From Agromyces allii (GTDB taxonomy: Bacteria; Actinomycetota; Actinomycetes; Actinomycetales; Microbacteriaceae): a DNA stretch of 64,000 nt. The notes under the pieces were generated by a model, which saw only the letters and a program-made list of their open reading frames with translations, did not search any database and was not told where the DNA came from. Position numbers and translations under genes: made by a program. Location: assembly GCF_009749385.1 (NCBI RefSeq), contig NZ_WBIN01000013.1, forward strand, positions 1-64,000, in the 5' to 3' direction. This document shows, in pieces, positions 32,680 through 37,540 of the stretch (the first letter of the stretch is position 1; every line of letters begins with the position of its first letter).

Positions 32680-34011
32680 TCAGGCGAGGGCGGCGCGCGC
32701 CTTGGCGTACTTCTCGGCGAGGCGGGCCTGGGTCTCGTGGTCGAGCTTGCGCAGGCGCCAGGGCGCGGAGTTGTCGGCGATGTCGGCGAGCTTGACGTTG
32801 CGCGCCACCGCGTTGGTGCGGATGCGCGCGTAGTACTCGGCCGCGGAGACATCGGGCGTGCGCGTGAGCAGCTGCACGGCGTCGATGATCTCGTGCTCGA
32901 CGCCCGCCTCGCGAAGCCGCTCAGCGGTGAGGTCGGTGTCCTCGAGCACGTCGTGCAGCCACGCCACGGCGACCTCGGCCGGCTGCGCGATCGGGTCGAA
33001 GGTCTCGGCCACGCGCGCGGGGTGGTCGATGTACTCGGCGCCGAGCTTGTCGGTCTGGCCGCGGTGCGCCACGAACGCGATGCCCTGCGCGAGCCCGATC
33101 TGCAGTGCGGCCGCGTTCGCGCCTGGTGCCACCGGGCGAGCGGATGCCGGCGTCGGTGCGGCGGCGCCTGCCGTCGGCGTGTGCGCCGGAGCGGCAGAGG
33201 CGGGCGCGATCGGCGTGACGGGCGCGATCGGCGCGGCCGGAACCGCACGCGCCGGGGCCGGAGCGGGAGCGGACCCCGCGACCACCGCCTCGAACTGCTC
33301 GAAGGTCCAGTCGGCGTCGGATTCCATCGTCATGTCCACGTCTTTCGTGCTGCGTGCAGGGAGGTCGGCGGCTGCCGGCTCGGGAGTGTCTCGGGGGTCG
33401 TCGGTGCCGAACCCGGCGACGAGCGCGATGCGCTCATCGGGCTCGGCCCGCTCATCGGGCTCGGCGGGCCCGGCCTCGACGCGCGCCGCCGGCGCGACCG
33501 GCGTGATCGGGGCCGTCGCGCGAAGCGGGAACACCGGGCCGGTGGAACGGAGGGGCGCCACGGGTCCGGTGGATCGGAGCGGCGCCACTGGCCCGGTCGC
33601 ACCGACGGGTCCGGTCGCTCCCGCCGACTCGCGCTCGTCGAGCAGCTCGGTCCAGGCGGGGTCCTCGAGCGGATCGTGTCCGGCGACGGGCCGCACGAAC
33701 CCGAGCTCGGCCTCGAGCTCGGCCATCTCGTCGGCGTCGAGTTCGTGCATCGACCGGATCTCGCTCGTGCGCCGCACAGCGACGTAGCGCTCGGAGACCT
33801 CGGTCATGAGCGCGCCCGTGTCGGTCGCGAAGAACCGCGGGCCGGCATCGCCGGCGACCTCGACGATGGTCTCCTCGTACTCGCCGCCGGGTTCGAGCGA
33901 GCACACGTGATAGCGGAATCGCCCGTCGTCGGACGCTCGCCGAGGGGTCGCCGCTGACGCGCGTGCGGCCGCACGACGACCGGGGGGCGGGTCGTCAACG
34001 GATGTCGTCAC
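32680..34011 (-). CDS. HD-domain (RelA/SpoT hydrolase-like) protein with long N-terminal extension
   Basis: The 443-residue protein ends in a stand-alone HD hydrolase domain (about 302-443). It has HRGQTDKLGAEYIDHPARVA, then LHDVLEDT (the HD pair), then VKLADIADN, as in (p)ppGpp hydrolases; no synthetase domain follows. The first ~130 residues form a separate acidic domain (RYHVCSLEPGGEYEETIVEV, HELDADEMAELEAELGF). A linker of GATGPV and LRSTGPV repeats and a Pro/Ala-rich stretch join them. The GTG start follows CCAGGAGCCCGA, and TAGAAT at 34069-34064 is a strong -10. An internal ATG at residue ~229 could yield an HD-only form. Substrate is not proven. Confidence 0.75.
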   Translation of the reverse strand: MTTSVDDPPPGRRAAARASAATPRRASDDGRFRYHVCSLEPGGEYEETIVEVAGDAGPRFFATDTGALMTEVSERYVAVRRTSEIRSMHELDADEMAELEAELGFVRPVAGHDPLEDPAWTELLDERESAGATGPVGATGPVAPLRSTGPVAPLRSTGPVFPLRATAPITPVAPAARVEAGPAEPDERAEPDERIALVAGFGTDDPRDTPEPAAADLPARSTKDVDMTMESDADWTFEQFEAVVAGSAPAPAPARAVPAAPIAPVTPIAPASAAPAHTPTAGAAAPTPASARPVAPGANAAALQIGLAQGIAFVAHRGQTDKLGAEYIDHPARVAETFDPIAQPAEVAVAWLHDVLEDTDLTAERLREAGVEHEIIDAVQLLTRTPDVSAAEYYARIRTNAVARNVKLADIADNSAPWRLRKLDHETQARLAEKYAKARAALA

Positions 34012-34114
34012 TCGGGCTCCTGGCCGTCGGGGGTCGGTTGGGGCGGCGCCGAAGCGCAGTCCGATTCTACGAGAGGGGCGCCGCCGCGGCATCCCCCGCG
34101 CCGATCGGACCGTG

Positions 34115-34176
34115 TTCAGCCCACGGCAGCACTGCCCAGGGCAGCACTGCTCACGGCAGCACTGCCCACGGCGGAA
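34115..34176 (+). promoter_or_regulatory. Four tandem PopR-like boxes upstream of clpP
   Basis: Half-sites GGCAG (or GGCGG in the last) start at 34125, 34140, 34155 and 34170, an exact 15-bp period. Each is preceded after three bases by AGCC/CTGCC-type halves: TTCAGCC-CAC-GGCAG, CTGCC-CAG-GGCAG, CTGCT-CAC-GGCAG, CTGCC-CAC-GGCGGAA. This matches the recalled PopR box of Streptomyces (TTCTGCC-N3-GGCAGAA). It lies 40-100 bp before clpP and also upstream of the divergent HD gene. Confidence 0.7.
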
Positions 34177-34215
34177 ACGCCGGCACGCGACATCCGCTCG
34201 GCGCACTCTGGAGGC

Positions 34216-34899
34216 ATGAGCGAAGACACCCAGGCCCCACTGCATCCGATCGATGCGGACCTCTCGACCCAGCTGTTCCGCCAGCGCGTCATCGTGCTCG
34301 GCAGCGAACTCGACCAGAACCTCGGCAATCGGCTCACGAGCCAGCTGCTGCTGCTCTCGGCCGAGGACCCCGACCGCGACATCGCGTTCTGGATCAACTC
34401 GCCCGGCGGCTCGGTGACCGCCATGCTCGCGATCATGGACGTCATGAAGGCGATCCCGAACGACGTCGCCACGGTCGCGATAGGCATGGCGGCGAGCGCC
34501 GGCCAGTTCCTGCTCTCGTCCGGGACGCCCGGCAAGCGCGTGGCCCTGCCGCACGCACGCATCCTCATGCACCAGGGGTCGGCCGGCATCGGCGGCACCG
34601 CGGTCGACGTCGAGCTGCAGGCCGACGACCTGCGGCAGACGCGCGACACCATGCTGGGCCTCCTCGCCGAGCACACCGGGCAGCCGCTCGAGCGCATCAC
34701 CGAGGACTCGCTGCGCGACCGCTGGGTGAGCGCCGACGAGGCCGTCGCCTACGGGTTCATCGACCGGGTCGTGCACGACGCGATCGACATCTACCCCGGT
34801 GCGCGCGGGCGCCTGCACGGTCCCGGTTTCCGGTCGGATGCCACGAGCCACCCGCTCGCAGACCCCGCCGCCGCGGCCAGGCAGGGGGCGCTCGCATGA
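34216..34899 (+). CDS. clpP: ATP-dependent Clp protease proteolytic subunit
   Basis: The 227-residue ClpP has the active-site Ser in GMAASAGQFLL (about residue 95), His in ILMHQG (about 117) and Asp in EDSLRDRW. The INSPGGSVTAM segment forms the oxyanion hairpin. It assembles as a barrel with Clp ATPases to degrade proteins in the cytoplasm. CTCTGGAGGC precedes the ATG. It overlaps the next clpP-like gene by ATGA, so the pair is co-translated. It has a ~25-residue C-terminal extension. Regulation by the PopR-like protein encoded downstream is likely. Confidence 0.95.
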   Translation: MSEDTQAPLHPIDADLSTQLFRQRVIVLGSELDQNLGNRLTSQLLLLSAEDPDRDIAFWINSPGGSVTAMLAIMDVMKAIPNDVATVAIGMAASAGQFLLSSGTPGKRVALPHARILMHQGSAGIGGTAVDVELQADDLRQTRDTMLGLLAEHTGQPLERITEDSLRDRWVSADEAVAYGFIDRVVHDAIDIYPGARGRLHGPGFRSDATSHPLADPAAAARQGALA

Positions 34900-35510
34900 G
34901 CGGCTACACGATCCCGTACGTGACCGAACGGCGCGGCAACGTCGAGCGCACGGTCGACGTGTACAGCAGCCTGCTCGCCGAGCGGATCATCACCCTCGGC
35001 ACCGAGATCGACGACGGCGTGGCCAACGTGCTCATCGCCCAGCTGCTGCACCTCGAGGCCGACAGCCAGGAGGCGCCCGTGCACCTCTACCTCAACTCCC
35101 CCGGCGGATCGCCGCAGGCCGCGCTCGCGGTGTACGACACCATGCAGCACATCCGGCCGGCGGTCGCGACGACGTGCGTGGGGCAGGTCGGCGGCCCCGT
35201 CGCCATGCTGCTCGCTGGCGGAGCGCCCGGCATGCGGGGCATCCTGCGCCACGGGCGCGCGGTGCTGCACCAGCCGTCGACGCAGGGGCGCGGCTCCATC
35301 CCCGACCTCATCATCCACGCCGACGAGGTGCTGCGCGTTCGCGGCGAGCTCGAGGCCGTGCTCGCGCACGACACCGGGCGCACGCGCGAACAGGTGCGCC
35401 ACGACACCGATCGGGAGCTGATCCTGGATGCCGCGGCCGCCGTCGAGTACGGGCTCGCCGACCGGGTGGTCGCGGTGCAGCGGCCCGGCGCACCGGCGCT
35501 CGAGGGCTAG
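34896..35510 (+). CDS. ClpP-like subunit lacking the catalytic Ser (ClpR-like)
   Basis: The 204-residue protein aligns through the whole ClpP fold (YLNSPGGSPQAALAVYDTM, VLHQPSTQGRG, RDTDREL-like HDTDRELIL). The segment around the nucleophile is CVGQVGGPVAMLLAGG, where GQAASMGAFLL is expected, so Ser is Gly and the next two positions also differ. The His and Asp are kept. It should be inactive alone but could form a mixed barrel with the preceding ClpP, as ClpR does in cyanobacteria and plastids. Its TAG stop shares bases with the TAG of the convergent regulator gene. Confidence 0.9.
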   Translation: MSGYTIPYVTERRGNVERTVDVYSSLLAERIITLGTEIDDGVANVLIAQLLHLEADSQEAPVHLYLNSPGGSPQAALAVYDTMQHIRPAVATTCVGQVGGPVAMLLAGGAPGMRGILRHGRAVLHQPSTQGRGSIPDLIIHADEVLRVRGELEAVLAHDTGRTREQVRHDTDRELILDAAAAVEYGLADRVVAVQRPGAPALEG

Positions 35511-35926
35511 GCGACGAGGGCGACGTCGTGGATCGAGCCCGCGACCGGAGCCGACGTCTCGTGATGCGCCGGCCACCCACCACGCGCGGTGAGGTCGAGC
35601 ACGACGAGCGGGCGCGGCGACGTCTGCGCCTCCCGGCCCGTGAGCTCGGCGGCGACCCCGGCGGCGACGTCGAGCAGGGTGAGCCCCAGCGCCTCGGTCA
35701 CGGCGGCCAGGATCTCGCTCGAGGGCTCCTTGCGGCCGCGTTCGATCTCGGAGAGGTACTGCGTCGAGACGTCGGCGTCGCGTGCGACATCGGCCAGGAT
35801 GCGTTCCTGGGCGAGGCGTTCTCGCCGGAGGAAGGCGCCGAGCGCCTCGCGCCAGAGCGGGGTGCGCTCGCGTTCGGCGCCGCGCCGCGGCATCCGCTCG
35901 GTCTCCTGCAGCCGGATCGCGTCCAT
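35507..35926 (-). CDS. XRE-family regulator of clp genes, PopR/ClgR type
   Basis: The 139-residue protein has a near-consensus ClgR/PopR HTH (about 26-85: FLRRERLAQERILADVARDA, VSTQYLSEIERGRKEPSSEI, LGLTLLDV). It ends HDVALVA; PopR and ClgR carry C-terminal Ala-type tags that make them ClpP substrates, so a feedback loop is plausible. TAGCCT lies six bases before the ATG (35933-35938, complement), so it is leaderless. It is convergent with the clpP pair, as popR is near clpP3-clpP4 in Streptomyces (recalled). The PopR-like boxes at 34115-34176 are the likely target. Confidence 0.85.
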   Translation of the reverse strand: MDAIRLQETERMPRRGAERERTPLWREALGAFLRRERLAQERILADVARDADVSTQYLSEIERGRKEPSSEILAAVTEALGLTLLDVAAGVAAELTGREAQTSPRPLVVLDLTARGGWPAHHETSAPVAGSIHDVALVA

Positions 35927-36017
35927 GTCGCGAGGCTACCCAGCCGGTGGGCGGATGTCTCGCGCATCCGCTCAGGGCAGAATCCGGCGCGTGCCGGCGA
36001 ACCGCTAGGCTCGCGGG

Positions 36018-36095
36018 CAGTGACACGGGGTGCCGCGATCCGCGGCTGAGATCACACCCGTCGAACCTGATCTAGTTCGGACTAGCGAAGGGATG
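36018..36095 (+). promoter_or_regulatory. TPP riboswitch (THI element)
   Basis: The conserved blocks appear in order: ACACGGGGTGCC, GGCTGAGA, ACACCCGTCGAACCTGATCT, AGTTCGGACTAGCGAAGGGA. GACA near the start pairs with TGTC at the end (P1). TAGGCT at 36006-36011 is the -10. The AAGGGA of the aptamer's 3' end also serves as Shine-Dalgarno for the ATG at 36101, so control of translation start is likely and no terminator hairpin fits between. Confidence 0.96.
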
Positions 36096-36100
36096 TCGCG

Positions 36101-37540
36101 ATGAGCGATCGCGCGTACGTCGACCCTGCCCACCCGCCGGCGCTGCCCGCCACTGACCATGAGGCGCTGGGCCGGAGCCTGCCGCCCGGACCGCCACCGG
36201 GCGACGGCTCGTCACCGCCCGGCCGCGCTCGCCGAGCCGTCGCCGCGGCCTCGATCGGCACGGCGCTCGAGTGGTACGACTTCTTCCTCTACGGCACGGC
36301 TGCGGCGCTCGTGTTCCCTGCGCTGTTCTTCCCCGACGAGGATCCGCTGACGGGCGTGCTGCTCTCGTTCGCGGTCTACGCGACCGGGTTCCTGGCGCGC
36401 CCGCTCGGCGGGCTCGTCGCCGGACATCTCGGCGACCGGTACGGCCGGCGCACCACGCTGCTCGGCACGCTGCTCGTCATGGGCATCGCCACGACCCTCA
36501 TCGGACTGCTGCCCACCCACGCGCAGGTCGGCGCGCTCGCACCCGCGCTGCTGGTGCTGCTCCGCCTCGCGCAGGGCGCCGCGACCGGTGGCGAGTGGGG
36601 CGGCGCCGTGCTGCTCGCGATCGAGAGCTCACCCGCGCGCGCCGGTGCGCGCGGCGGCCTCGTGCAGAGCGCGCTGTACGTCGGCCTGATCCTCGGCAAC
36701 CTCGCGTTCGTCGTGCTCGTGGGCGCCCTCGACGAGCAGCAGCTGCTCGCGTGGGGGTGGCGGATCCCGTTCCTCGCGAGCATCGTGCTCGTCGGGGTCG
36801 GCGTCCACCTGCGGCGCCGCGTCGACGAGTCGCCGGAGTTCACGGCGCTCCTCGAGCGGCGTCGTGCGTCGCGTCATCCGCTCCGGGAGGTGCTCCGTCG
36901 TCCGCGCAACGTGGTCGCCGTGTTCCTGGTGCGTGCCGGGCAGAACACGACCTTCTACCTCGTGTCGGTGTTCTGCCTCGGCTACGCCGCGAGCCTCGGC
37001 GTCGAGCGTTGGGTCACGCTCACGGCGCTGCTCGTGGGCGCCGGCATCGCGGTCGTCGCGTGCCCGATCTGGGGCCGCCTCGGCGAGCGCATCCTGCCGG
37101 CGCGACTGACGATCGCCGCACTCGGCGGCCTCGCCGTGATCGCCGTGCCCGTCTTCGTGGCCCTCGAGTCGGGTTCGGCCGCGCTCGTCATCGGCGTGGT
37201 CGCGCTGACGATCGGCGTGGTCAACGCGGCCGCCGACGGCGTGCAGCCGATGTGGTTCGCCTCGCTCTTCGACGCGAGGGTGCGCTACTCGGGTGTCACG
37301 ATCGGACGCGAGGCGGGTGCGATCGTCGGCGGCGGGCTCTCGCCGCTGCTCGCCGCGTGGCTCGTCGCCACCGCGGGGCACTGGTGGCCGGTCGCCGCCA
37401 TGATGGTCGTCGCGGCGGCACTCGGCATGGTCGGCGCAGTGCTCGCCCGCGACGAACCTGGAGCGACCGTGGACAGCGCTACTCGACCGGCGCCGGCTCG
37501 GGTGGACCCACGGCGACGGGATCGCGGCGACGGCGCGTGA
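36101..37540 (+). CDS. MHS-family MFS transporter under TPP riboswitch control
   Basis: The 479-residue, 12-helix protein has the metabolite:H+ symporter signatures SIGTALEWYDFFLYGTAAAL (near residue 51), GHLGDRYGRRTTLLG, and LRLAQGAATGGEWGGAVLL, then GWRIPFLASI. The N-terminal ~40 residues are Pro/Gly-rich and unstructured. The TPP riboswitch directly before it argues for uptake of thiamine or a precursor (HMP, thiazole) rather than the organic acids usual for MHS proteins. Its end overlaps the convergent EamA gene by 62 bp. The substrate is inferred from regulation only. Confidence 0.9.
   Translation: MSDRAYVDPAHPPALPATDHEALGRSLPPGPPPGDGSSPPGRARRAVAAASIGTALEWYDFFLYGTAAALVFPALFFPDEDPLTGVLLSFAVYATGFLARPLGGLVAGHLGDRYGRRTTLLGTLLVMGIATTLIGLLPTHAQVGALAPALLVLLRLAQGAATGGEWGGAVLLAIESSPARAGARGGLVQSALYVGLILGNLAFVVLVGALDEQQLLAWGWRIPFLASIVLVGVGVHLRRRVDESPEFTALLERRRASRHPLREVLRRPRNVVAVFLVRAGQNTTFYLVSVFCLGYAASLGVERWVTLTALLVGAGIAVVACPIWGRLGERILPARLTIAALGGLAVIAVPVFVALESGSAALVIGVVALTIGVVNAAADGVQPMWFASLFDARVRYSGVTIGREAGAIVGGGLSPLLAAWLVATAGHWWPVAAMMVVAAALGMVGAVLARDEPGATVDSATRPAPARVDPRRRDRGDGA

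Follow-up and report, generated by a model that had tools for sequence, protein, structure and literature searches.

A tandem array of four PopR-type boxes, a candidate operator of a backup Clp system, upstream of a second clpP pair in Agromyces allii

Upstream of a second clpP pair in Agromyces allii lie four imperfect inverted repeats of the CTGCC-N3-GGCAG type, with starts exactly 15 bp apart (34115-34176 of the 64,000 nucleotides of contig NZ_WBIN01000013.1 that were analyzed, hereafter the window; Table 1). Judged by its letters, this array appears to be an enlarged form of the known PopR operator type, and we are fairly confident that it serves as a fourfold operator through which the linked PopR-type activator, self-activating and limited by its own degradation, would induce a backup ClpP when the housekeeping ClpP fails. 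In Streptomyces lividans, published work has PopR activating clpP3clpP4, a backup pair, and the housekeeping ClpP1P2 degrading PopR (excerpts of PMC9765437 and PMC12607617). The PopR operator of clpP3clpP4 (Viala, 2000, as cited in PMC9775585) is given in that paper as TCTGCC-3N-GGCGAATCTGCC-3N-GGCAGA, which on counting amounts to two boxes 15 bp apart (PMC9775585). PopR operators with tandem boxes 15 bp apart were thus already known, the published S. lividans site consisting of two boxes in this register; what the present analysis adds is a promoter layout common to many relatives and a larger number of boxes. Three- and four-box ladders and the one-box promoter of the regulator were not found described in the open-licence literature, and as the search was limited to such papers this is weak evidence of novelty.

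Table 1. Features of the clpP locus, with positions counted from the first nucleotide of the window.
Feature	Position	Strand	Description
Box 1 (most distal)	34115..34131	+	TTCAGCC-CAC-GGCAGCA, TTCAGCCCACGGCAGCA; degenerate core score 9/10
Box 2	34130..34146	+	CACTGCC-CAG-GGCAGCA, CACTGCCCAGGGCAGCA; core score 10/10
Box 3	34145..34161	+	CACTGCT-CAC-GGCAGCA, CACTGCTCACGGCAGCA; core score 10/10
Box 4 (proximal)	34160..34176	+	CACTGCC-CAC-GGCGGAA, CACTGCCCACGGCGGAA; core score 10/10; 27 bp to -10 element
Predicted -10 element of clpP pair	34204..34209	+	CACTCT; 6 nt before ATG; leaderless transcript predicted
clpPa	34216..34899	+	Pfam CLP_protease; Ser and His at catalytic columns, Asp 49 columns past His
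clpPb	34896..35510	+	Pfam CLP_protease; ClpP-like, Gly replaces catalytic Ser
PopR-type XRE regulator	35507..35926	-	139 aa; XRE-type helix-turn-helix; C-terminus ...HDVALVA
Predicted -10 element of regulator gene	35933..35938	-	TAGCCT; 6 nt before ATG
Single box of regulator gene	35966..35982	-	TTCTGCCCTGAGCGGAT; 27 bp from its -10 element

Counted over ten core letters per box, with box classes that were defined once relatives had been inspected, the four boxes sum to 37 of 40. The best four-box sum at a period of 15 bp was 28 in 200 dinucleotide shuffles of the 64-kb window, and the real window reached no more than 27 at every other period from 12 to 21 bp, which makes a chance origin unlikely. 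The first-pass annotation, made from the sequence alone, had proposed four tandem PopR-like boxes of exact 15-bp period before a clpP pair, and this reading has held, for the array and its register as well as for the PopR type of boxes and regulator. That annotation did not include the single box upstream of the regulator gene (35966-35982).

The genes behind the array are likewise as first read: both belong to the clpP family by their Pfam CLP_protease matches, and the regulator gene is convergent with them and ends in HDVALVA. The two clpP genes overlap in ATGA, and clpPb meets the convergent regulator gene tail to tail, their stop codons overlapping in a CTAG palindrome (35507-35510). There are four CLP_protease genes in the genome, forming two pairs, so the pair of the window is a second one besides the housekeeping clpP1P2. 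Among 99 loci of this kind, the first ClpP subunit has the catalytic Ser in 98, with a gap in one, while the corresponding column of the second subunit holds G in 47 (including all 34 Agromyces), S in 32, W in 17, and A in 3, and is thus without Ser in 67 of the 99. The column 49 positions past His, a spacing that we take to be that of the catalytic Asp in Escherichia coli ClpP, is occupied by D in the first ClpP of the window and by E in the second. With Gly in the Ser column, clpPb of the window looks like a non-catalytic, ClpR-like partner. Mixed ClpP/ClpR cores are half-active, and given the number of loci in which the second subunit lacks the catalytic Ser, the backup core is probably half-active in many species. 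Near the pair, the reading frame at 32680-33957 on the reverse strand carries degenerate repeats of the STGPVAPLR type followed by a stretch that, by eye from the translation, resembles an HD-type hydrolase; the stretch submitted to Pfam gave no match at an E-value of 0.001.

The same unit of regulator, clpP pair and two-box operator is found on a 927-kb plasmid of Streptomyces fungicidicus (L139, 3917-5579), in the gene order of the window, with the clpP pair convergent with the helix-turn-helix gene and the boxes 15 bp apart. An nAnnnT hexamer (GATGGT) follows at 28 bp and the annotated start codon lies 89 nt past the proximal box; upstream of the regulator no box scores above 8, and the one that reaches this score does not keep the spacing. 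By eye, the catalytic Ser missing from clpPb of the window is kept in the second ClpP of S. fungicidicus, where the His position seems to be Gly. This plasmid was one of five records found in a plasmid search with the regulator. Among the three that were examined, two lie beside a clpP pair; the third (L138) does not and was left unused. In the other locus beside a pair, from Embleya, the best two boxes at 15 bp score 8 and 10, i.e., one good and one weaker box. The window thus shares with the S. lividans PopR system, as excerpted, tandem boxes of the TCTGCC-3N-GGC.. type at 15 bp, a regulator paralogous to ClgR, and a second clpP pair apart from clpP1P2. It differs in having four boxes instead of two before the pair and a regulator ending in LVA instead of AA, and is further set apart by the start codon close behind the -10 element and by one good box at the promoter of the regulator.

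ClgR, the housekeeping Clp regulator, has to be considered as an alternative occupant of the boxes, with the linked protein serving another role. PopR and ClgR are paralogues with similar sites: both belong to the same helix-turn-helix family (the solved ClgR chains 3f51 and 5woq match the regulator at 1.4e-13 and 1.1e-12), and the geometry of their boxes is alike. The genome moreover encodes one other relative of the regulator within an E-value of 0.001, and the two share 49% identity over 68 residues. This protein is more ClgR-like and adjoins CinA- and PgsA-like frames, named from their translations, a neighborhood that we take to be typical of clgR. The linked regulator itself reaches 72.6 bits against the NCBIfam ClgR model (NF041677), below the cut-off of 170, and is an XRE-type ClgR paralogue distinct from the ClgR of the genome. 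The half-sites also differ, being GCGAAC for ClgR and GGCAG in the window. The ClgR regulon includes clpP1, clpC, and lon, and its motif is GTTCGC-5N-GCG (PMC9775585, in excerpt). Two exact sites of this motif are located upstream of the housekeeping clpP1, whereas neither GTTCGC nor GCGAAC occurs in 34000-34216, so that the two clpP pairs appear to have different operators, that of the window being of the PopR type. Together with the observation that the linked regulator tracks the clpP pair across genomes, often with such a box at its own gene (see below), this renders binding of the array by ClgR highly improbable, and we retain the linked PopR-type protein as the candidate regulator.

The conservation of the array was assessed in relatives, the nearest named ones of the locus being Agromyces. 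A second pair is present in 31 of 37 genomes of the genus, A. allii included; 30 loci from same-genus genomes were used (G002 was left out), and 80 of 477 confirmed named loci were added. Exclusion of ten repeat loci, of L062 (too little upstream DNA), and of L106 (whose clpPa match is a fragment at a contig end) left 98 distinct promoters under 20 labels, namely 18 genera and two metagenome-assembled genomes named only to order. At 15 bp, 88 of these 98 promoters attain 18 or more of the 20 points possible for two boxes; at the other periods tried, eleven between 11 and 22 bp, the number attaining it ranges from 0 to 14 of the 98. The ten failures belong to Gordonia (three), Agilicoccus, Antrihabitans, Haloactinopolyspora, Phytoactinopolyspora, Rhodococcus, Rhodococcoides, and Flexivirga; several of them retain a single strict palindrome, a hint that two half-sites spaced by N3 make up the unit. 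Box 3 of the window is the distal half of this conserved two-box core. The expectation that relatives would carry the array before their clpP pairs is therefore borne out for the two-box core (88/98) but not for the four-box form, which most relatives lack.

Counting an extra box at a score of at least 9 of 10 (at 8, one five-box array would appear), the 34 Agromyces promoters have two boxes in 20 cases, three in 6, and four in 8, and the 54 other tandem promoters have two in 48, three in 6, and four in none. The extra boxes lie upstream of the two-box core, at -15 in 20 and at -30 in 9 of the 88 promoters; at control offsets an extra box occurs at an average of 0.09%, a figure that still includes L106, while the zero count at the +30 offset follows by construction and carries no evidential weight. 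Close relatives may differ, as L002 has four boxes and L003, with a clpPb 91% identical, has two. Four boxes are evidently not needed, given that 20 of the 34 Agromyces, and likewise L003, manage with two.

These counts also give some room to a simpler reading, in which only the two proximal boxes work and the distal two are leftovers of tandem duplication within a 15-bp repeat prone to slippage, drifting without function. Just two boxes are present in 68 of the 88 tandem promoters, and on the best ClpP-protein tree (42 loci, both ClpPs) the three box-number states require at least 10 changes and the four-box state, taken by itself, requires 4 (4-5 over bootstrap trees), with states that are nonetheless clustered (equally few changes in 1 of 200 shuffles). 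Among Agromyces arrays with at least three boxes (14 in number), similarity between 15-base units is higher within an array than for units dealt at random across these arrays (0.52 vs. 0.45; 0 of 5000 permutations), which points to tandem duplication and would be the mark of a recent one. Against drift, the units hold exact register, the majority of distal cores are intact in the eight four-box arrays (partly by selection, a box being required to score 9/10), and the differences between the window and the L002 array fall, by eye, mainly at linker, spacer, and R/Y positions. We regard a lack of function in the distal boxes as possible, yet clearly less probable than a working fourfold operator.

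The promoters of the clpP pairs share a second fixed element. An nAnnnT hexamer follows the proximal box at 27 or 28 bp in 85 of the 88 tandem promoters, and in 73 it stands at 27 (33 promoters) or 28 bp (40) with a start codon 5-7 nt further on, and at 25, 26, 29, or 30 bp in none. When instead the 6 nt to the start codon are fixed and the distance to the box is left free, 27 or 28 bp accounts for 69 matches and all other distances for 4. Twelve of the other 15 tandem promoters have nAnnnT at 27 or 28 bp without a near start codon, compared with 1.8% at a control position. The distance from box to -10 element is the same with two, three, or four boxes. From the position of CACTCT and the usual -10-to-start distance, the transcript in the window would begin at the ATG. 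Leaderless starts are not universal among these promoters: 15 of the 88 have no near start codon, and in S. fungicidicus the annotated one lies 89 nt past the proximal box; such promoters would have a leader instead. A GGAAAC at 34174-34179 was considered as the -35 element of an ECF sigma factor and rejected, the other Agromyces having mostly GGCGGCATCC or similar there.

This layout bears on two further explanations. The inverted half-sites could pair in a transcript and act as leader hairpins in attenuation rather than as DNA boxes; the -10 element at a fixed distance downstream would, however, place the transcript start past the array, and Rfam at gathering scores detected in 33500-36600 only a TPP riboswitch at 36016-36110, so we give this explanation almost no credence. 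Repression, with occupied boxes near the promoter blocking the polymerase and loss of the regulator inducing the pair, also appears very unlikely. XRE proteins are often repressors, and the position of the boxes relative to the promoter is predicted from sequence; yet the proximal box lies upstream of the would-be -35 element, and the clpP -10 element next to the start codon never begins with T (of 73 promoters, 66 have C there, 4 have G, and 3 have A), as expected with dependence on an activator. PopR is, besides, described as an activator of clpP3clpP4 in S. lividans (PMC9765437, in excerpt). We therefore keep to activation by the linked regulator.

The regulator was located in 95 of the 99 loci, in all 95 convergent and downstream of the clpPb start; it was not found in L014, L015, L030, and L069, and a search of the genome of L014 gave a match 1.6 kb further on. 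In 71 of the 95, the regulator gene is preceded by a box, a hexamer of the TAnnnT type at 27-29 bp, and a start codon 6-8 nt on, an arrangement found in 0-2 of 95 with seven other gap windows and missing in the remaining 24 of 95 (the counts of 95 and 71 do not depend on the excluded L106 upstream region). The first base of the hexamer is T in all 71. None of the 71 has a second box 15 bp upstream, and one has a second box 15 bp downstream. Matched to the 14 letters of TTCTGCC-N3-GGCAGAA, which we take to be the Streptomyces PopR box and which is close to the published site, the 71 regulator boxes average 10.9 and the proximal clpP boxes 9.9, the latter over a set of 66 loci that predates the exclusion of L106. 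As regards the C-terminus, for which the first-pass annotation had pointed to an Ala-rich end, the 95 linked regulators end in AA in 82 cases, in VA in 8 (among them the LVA of the window), and otherwise in 5. Two C-terminal alanines are considered the likely recognition site for degradation of PopR (PMC9775585, in excerpt). In the window, the TPP riboswitch (Rfam RF00059, 71 bits) precedes an MFS transporter gene (36101-37540) that is divergent from the regulator, and the box of the regulator lies, by eye, also upstream of a possible -10 element (TAGGCT) of this riboswitch/MFS unit.

Pair and regulator also occur together across genomes. In a sample of 60, a second pair, called at a clpPb identity of at least 54%, is present in 36, and in 34 of these a regulator match with E <=1.4e-15 lies within about 2 kb; for the two others (G014 and G027) the assembly consists of 840 and 810 contigs, respectively. 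Two of the 24 genomes without the pair contain a regulator match about as strong (G023, 3.3e-16; G057, 2.3e-15), and the association is thus strong but not perfect.

From this anatomy we propose the following mechanism. Dimers of the regulator would bind side by side to the boxes spaced by 15 bp, and the dimer on the proximal box, centered 48 bp upstream of the start codon that is also the predicted transcript start, would recruit RNA polymerase to the weak CAnnnT -10 element and so switch on the clpP pair. The regulator gene, whose promoter is laid out alike but with a single box and with the better -10 element of the two (TAnnnT), probably activates itself. In the normal state the housekeeping Clp protease would remove the regulator by way of its LVA end; when that protease has failed or is overloaded, the regulator would accumulate and the backup pair would be made. 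The earlier suggestion of a loop, with ClpP destroying its own activator, oversimplifies the matter: in Streptomyces it is the housekeeping ClpP1P2 that destroys PopR, and the pair driven by PopR is the backup (PMC9765437, in excerpt). The circuit would thus be a switch that senses failure rather than a loop that limits itself. Extra distal boxes would lower the level of regulator needed and steepen the response, if neighbors bind cooperatively, and such cooperativity is plausible. In a nearest-neighbor lattice with a cooperativity of 100, going from two boxes to four lowers c50/K from 0.10 to 0.033 and steepens the slope from 1.8 to 2.6; without cooperativity, the extra boxes leave occupancy of the proximal box unchanged. 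The gain per added box shrinks in this model, which is in keeping with ladders that end at four.

More tentatively, PopR systems may share a general design, with one box and a good -10 element at the regulator for self-activation, and a ladder of two to four boxes at 15 bp with a poor -10 element at the backup protease, often a half-active mixed core. Changes of ladder length in 15-bp steps might then be an evolvable dial for the level of regulator, and hence the degree of Clp failure, at which the backup is triggered. If ladder length does set the threshold, the two-, three-, and four-box Agromyces would constitute a natural dose-response series for the sensing of failure of the main Clp. Such a switch would bear on the survival of actinobacteria exposed to acyldepsipeptides, of which Clp is a target (PMC9765437, in excerpt). 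The common spacing rules should make the operator findable from sequence in many actinobacteria.

Further targets in the A. allii genome were sought with a sequence-only model (R1) of both kinds of promoter, built from 51 of 59 sites, its training sequences including both promoters of the window locus. With 150 of 21630 first-look candidates scored, 94 places had E-values up to 10; among the 20 of them that were examined (L117-L136), the only full-length matches are the two promoters of the window locus, and at this coverage a third target may well exist elsewhere. L133 is the box of the regulator read in the opposite direction. For the other 17 places, the match coincides with one of the three best boxes of the locus only in L120 and L130, each with a score of 9. 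Elsewhere in the genome, L131 has a box that scores 10 (CTCCGCCGAGAGCAGCA) around position 1411, at a distance of about 90 bp from a weak match to the model; none of the boxes displayed for that locus forms a tandem with it.
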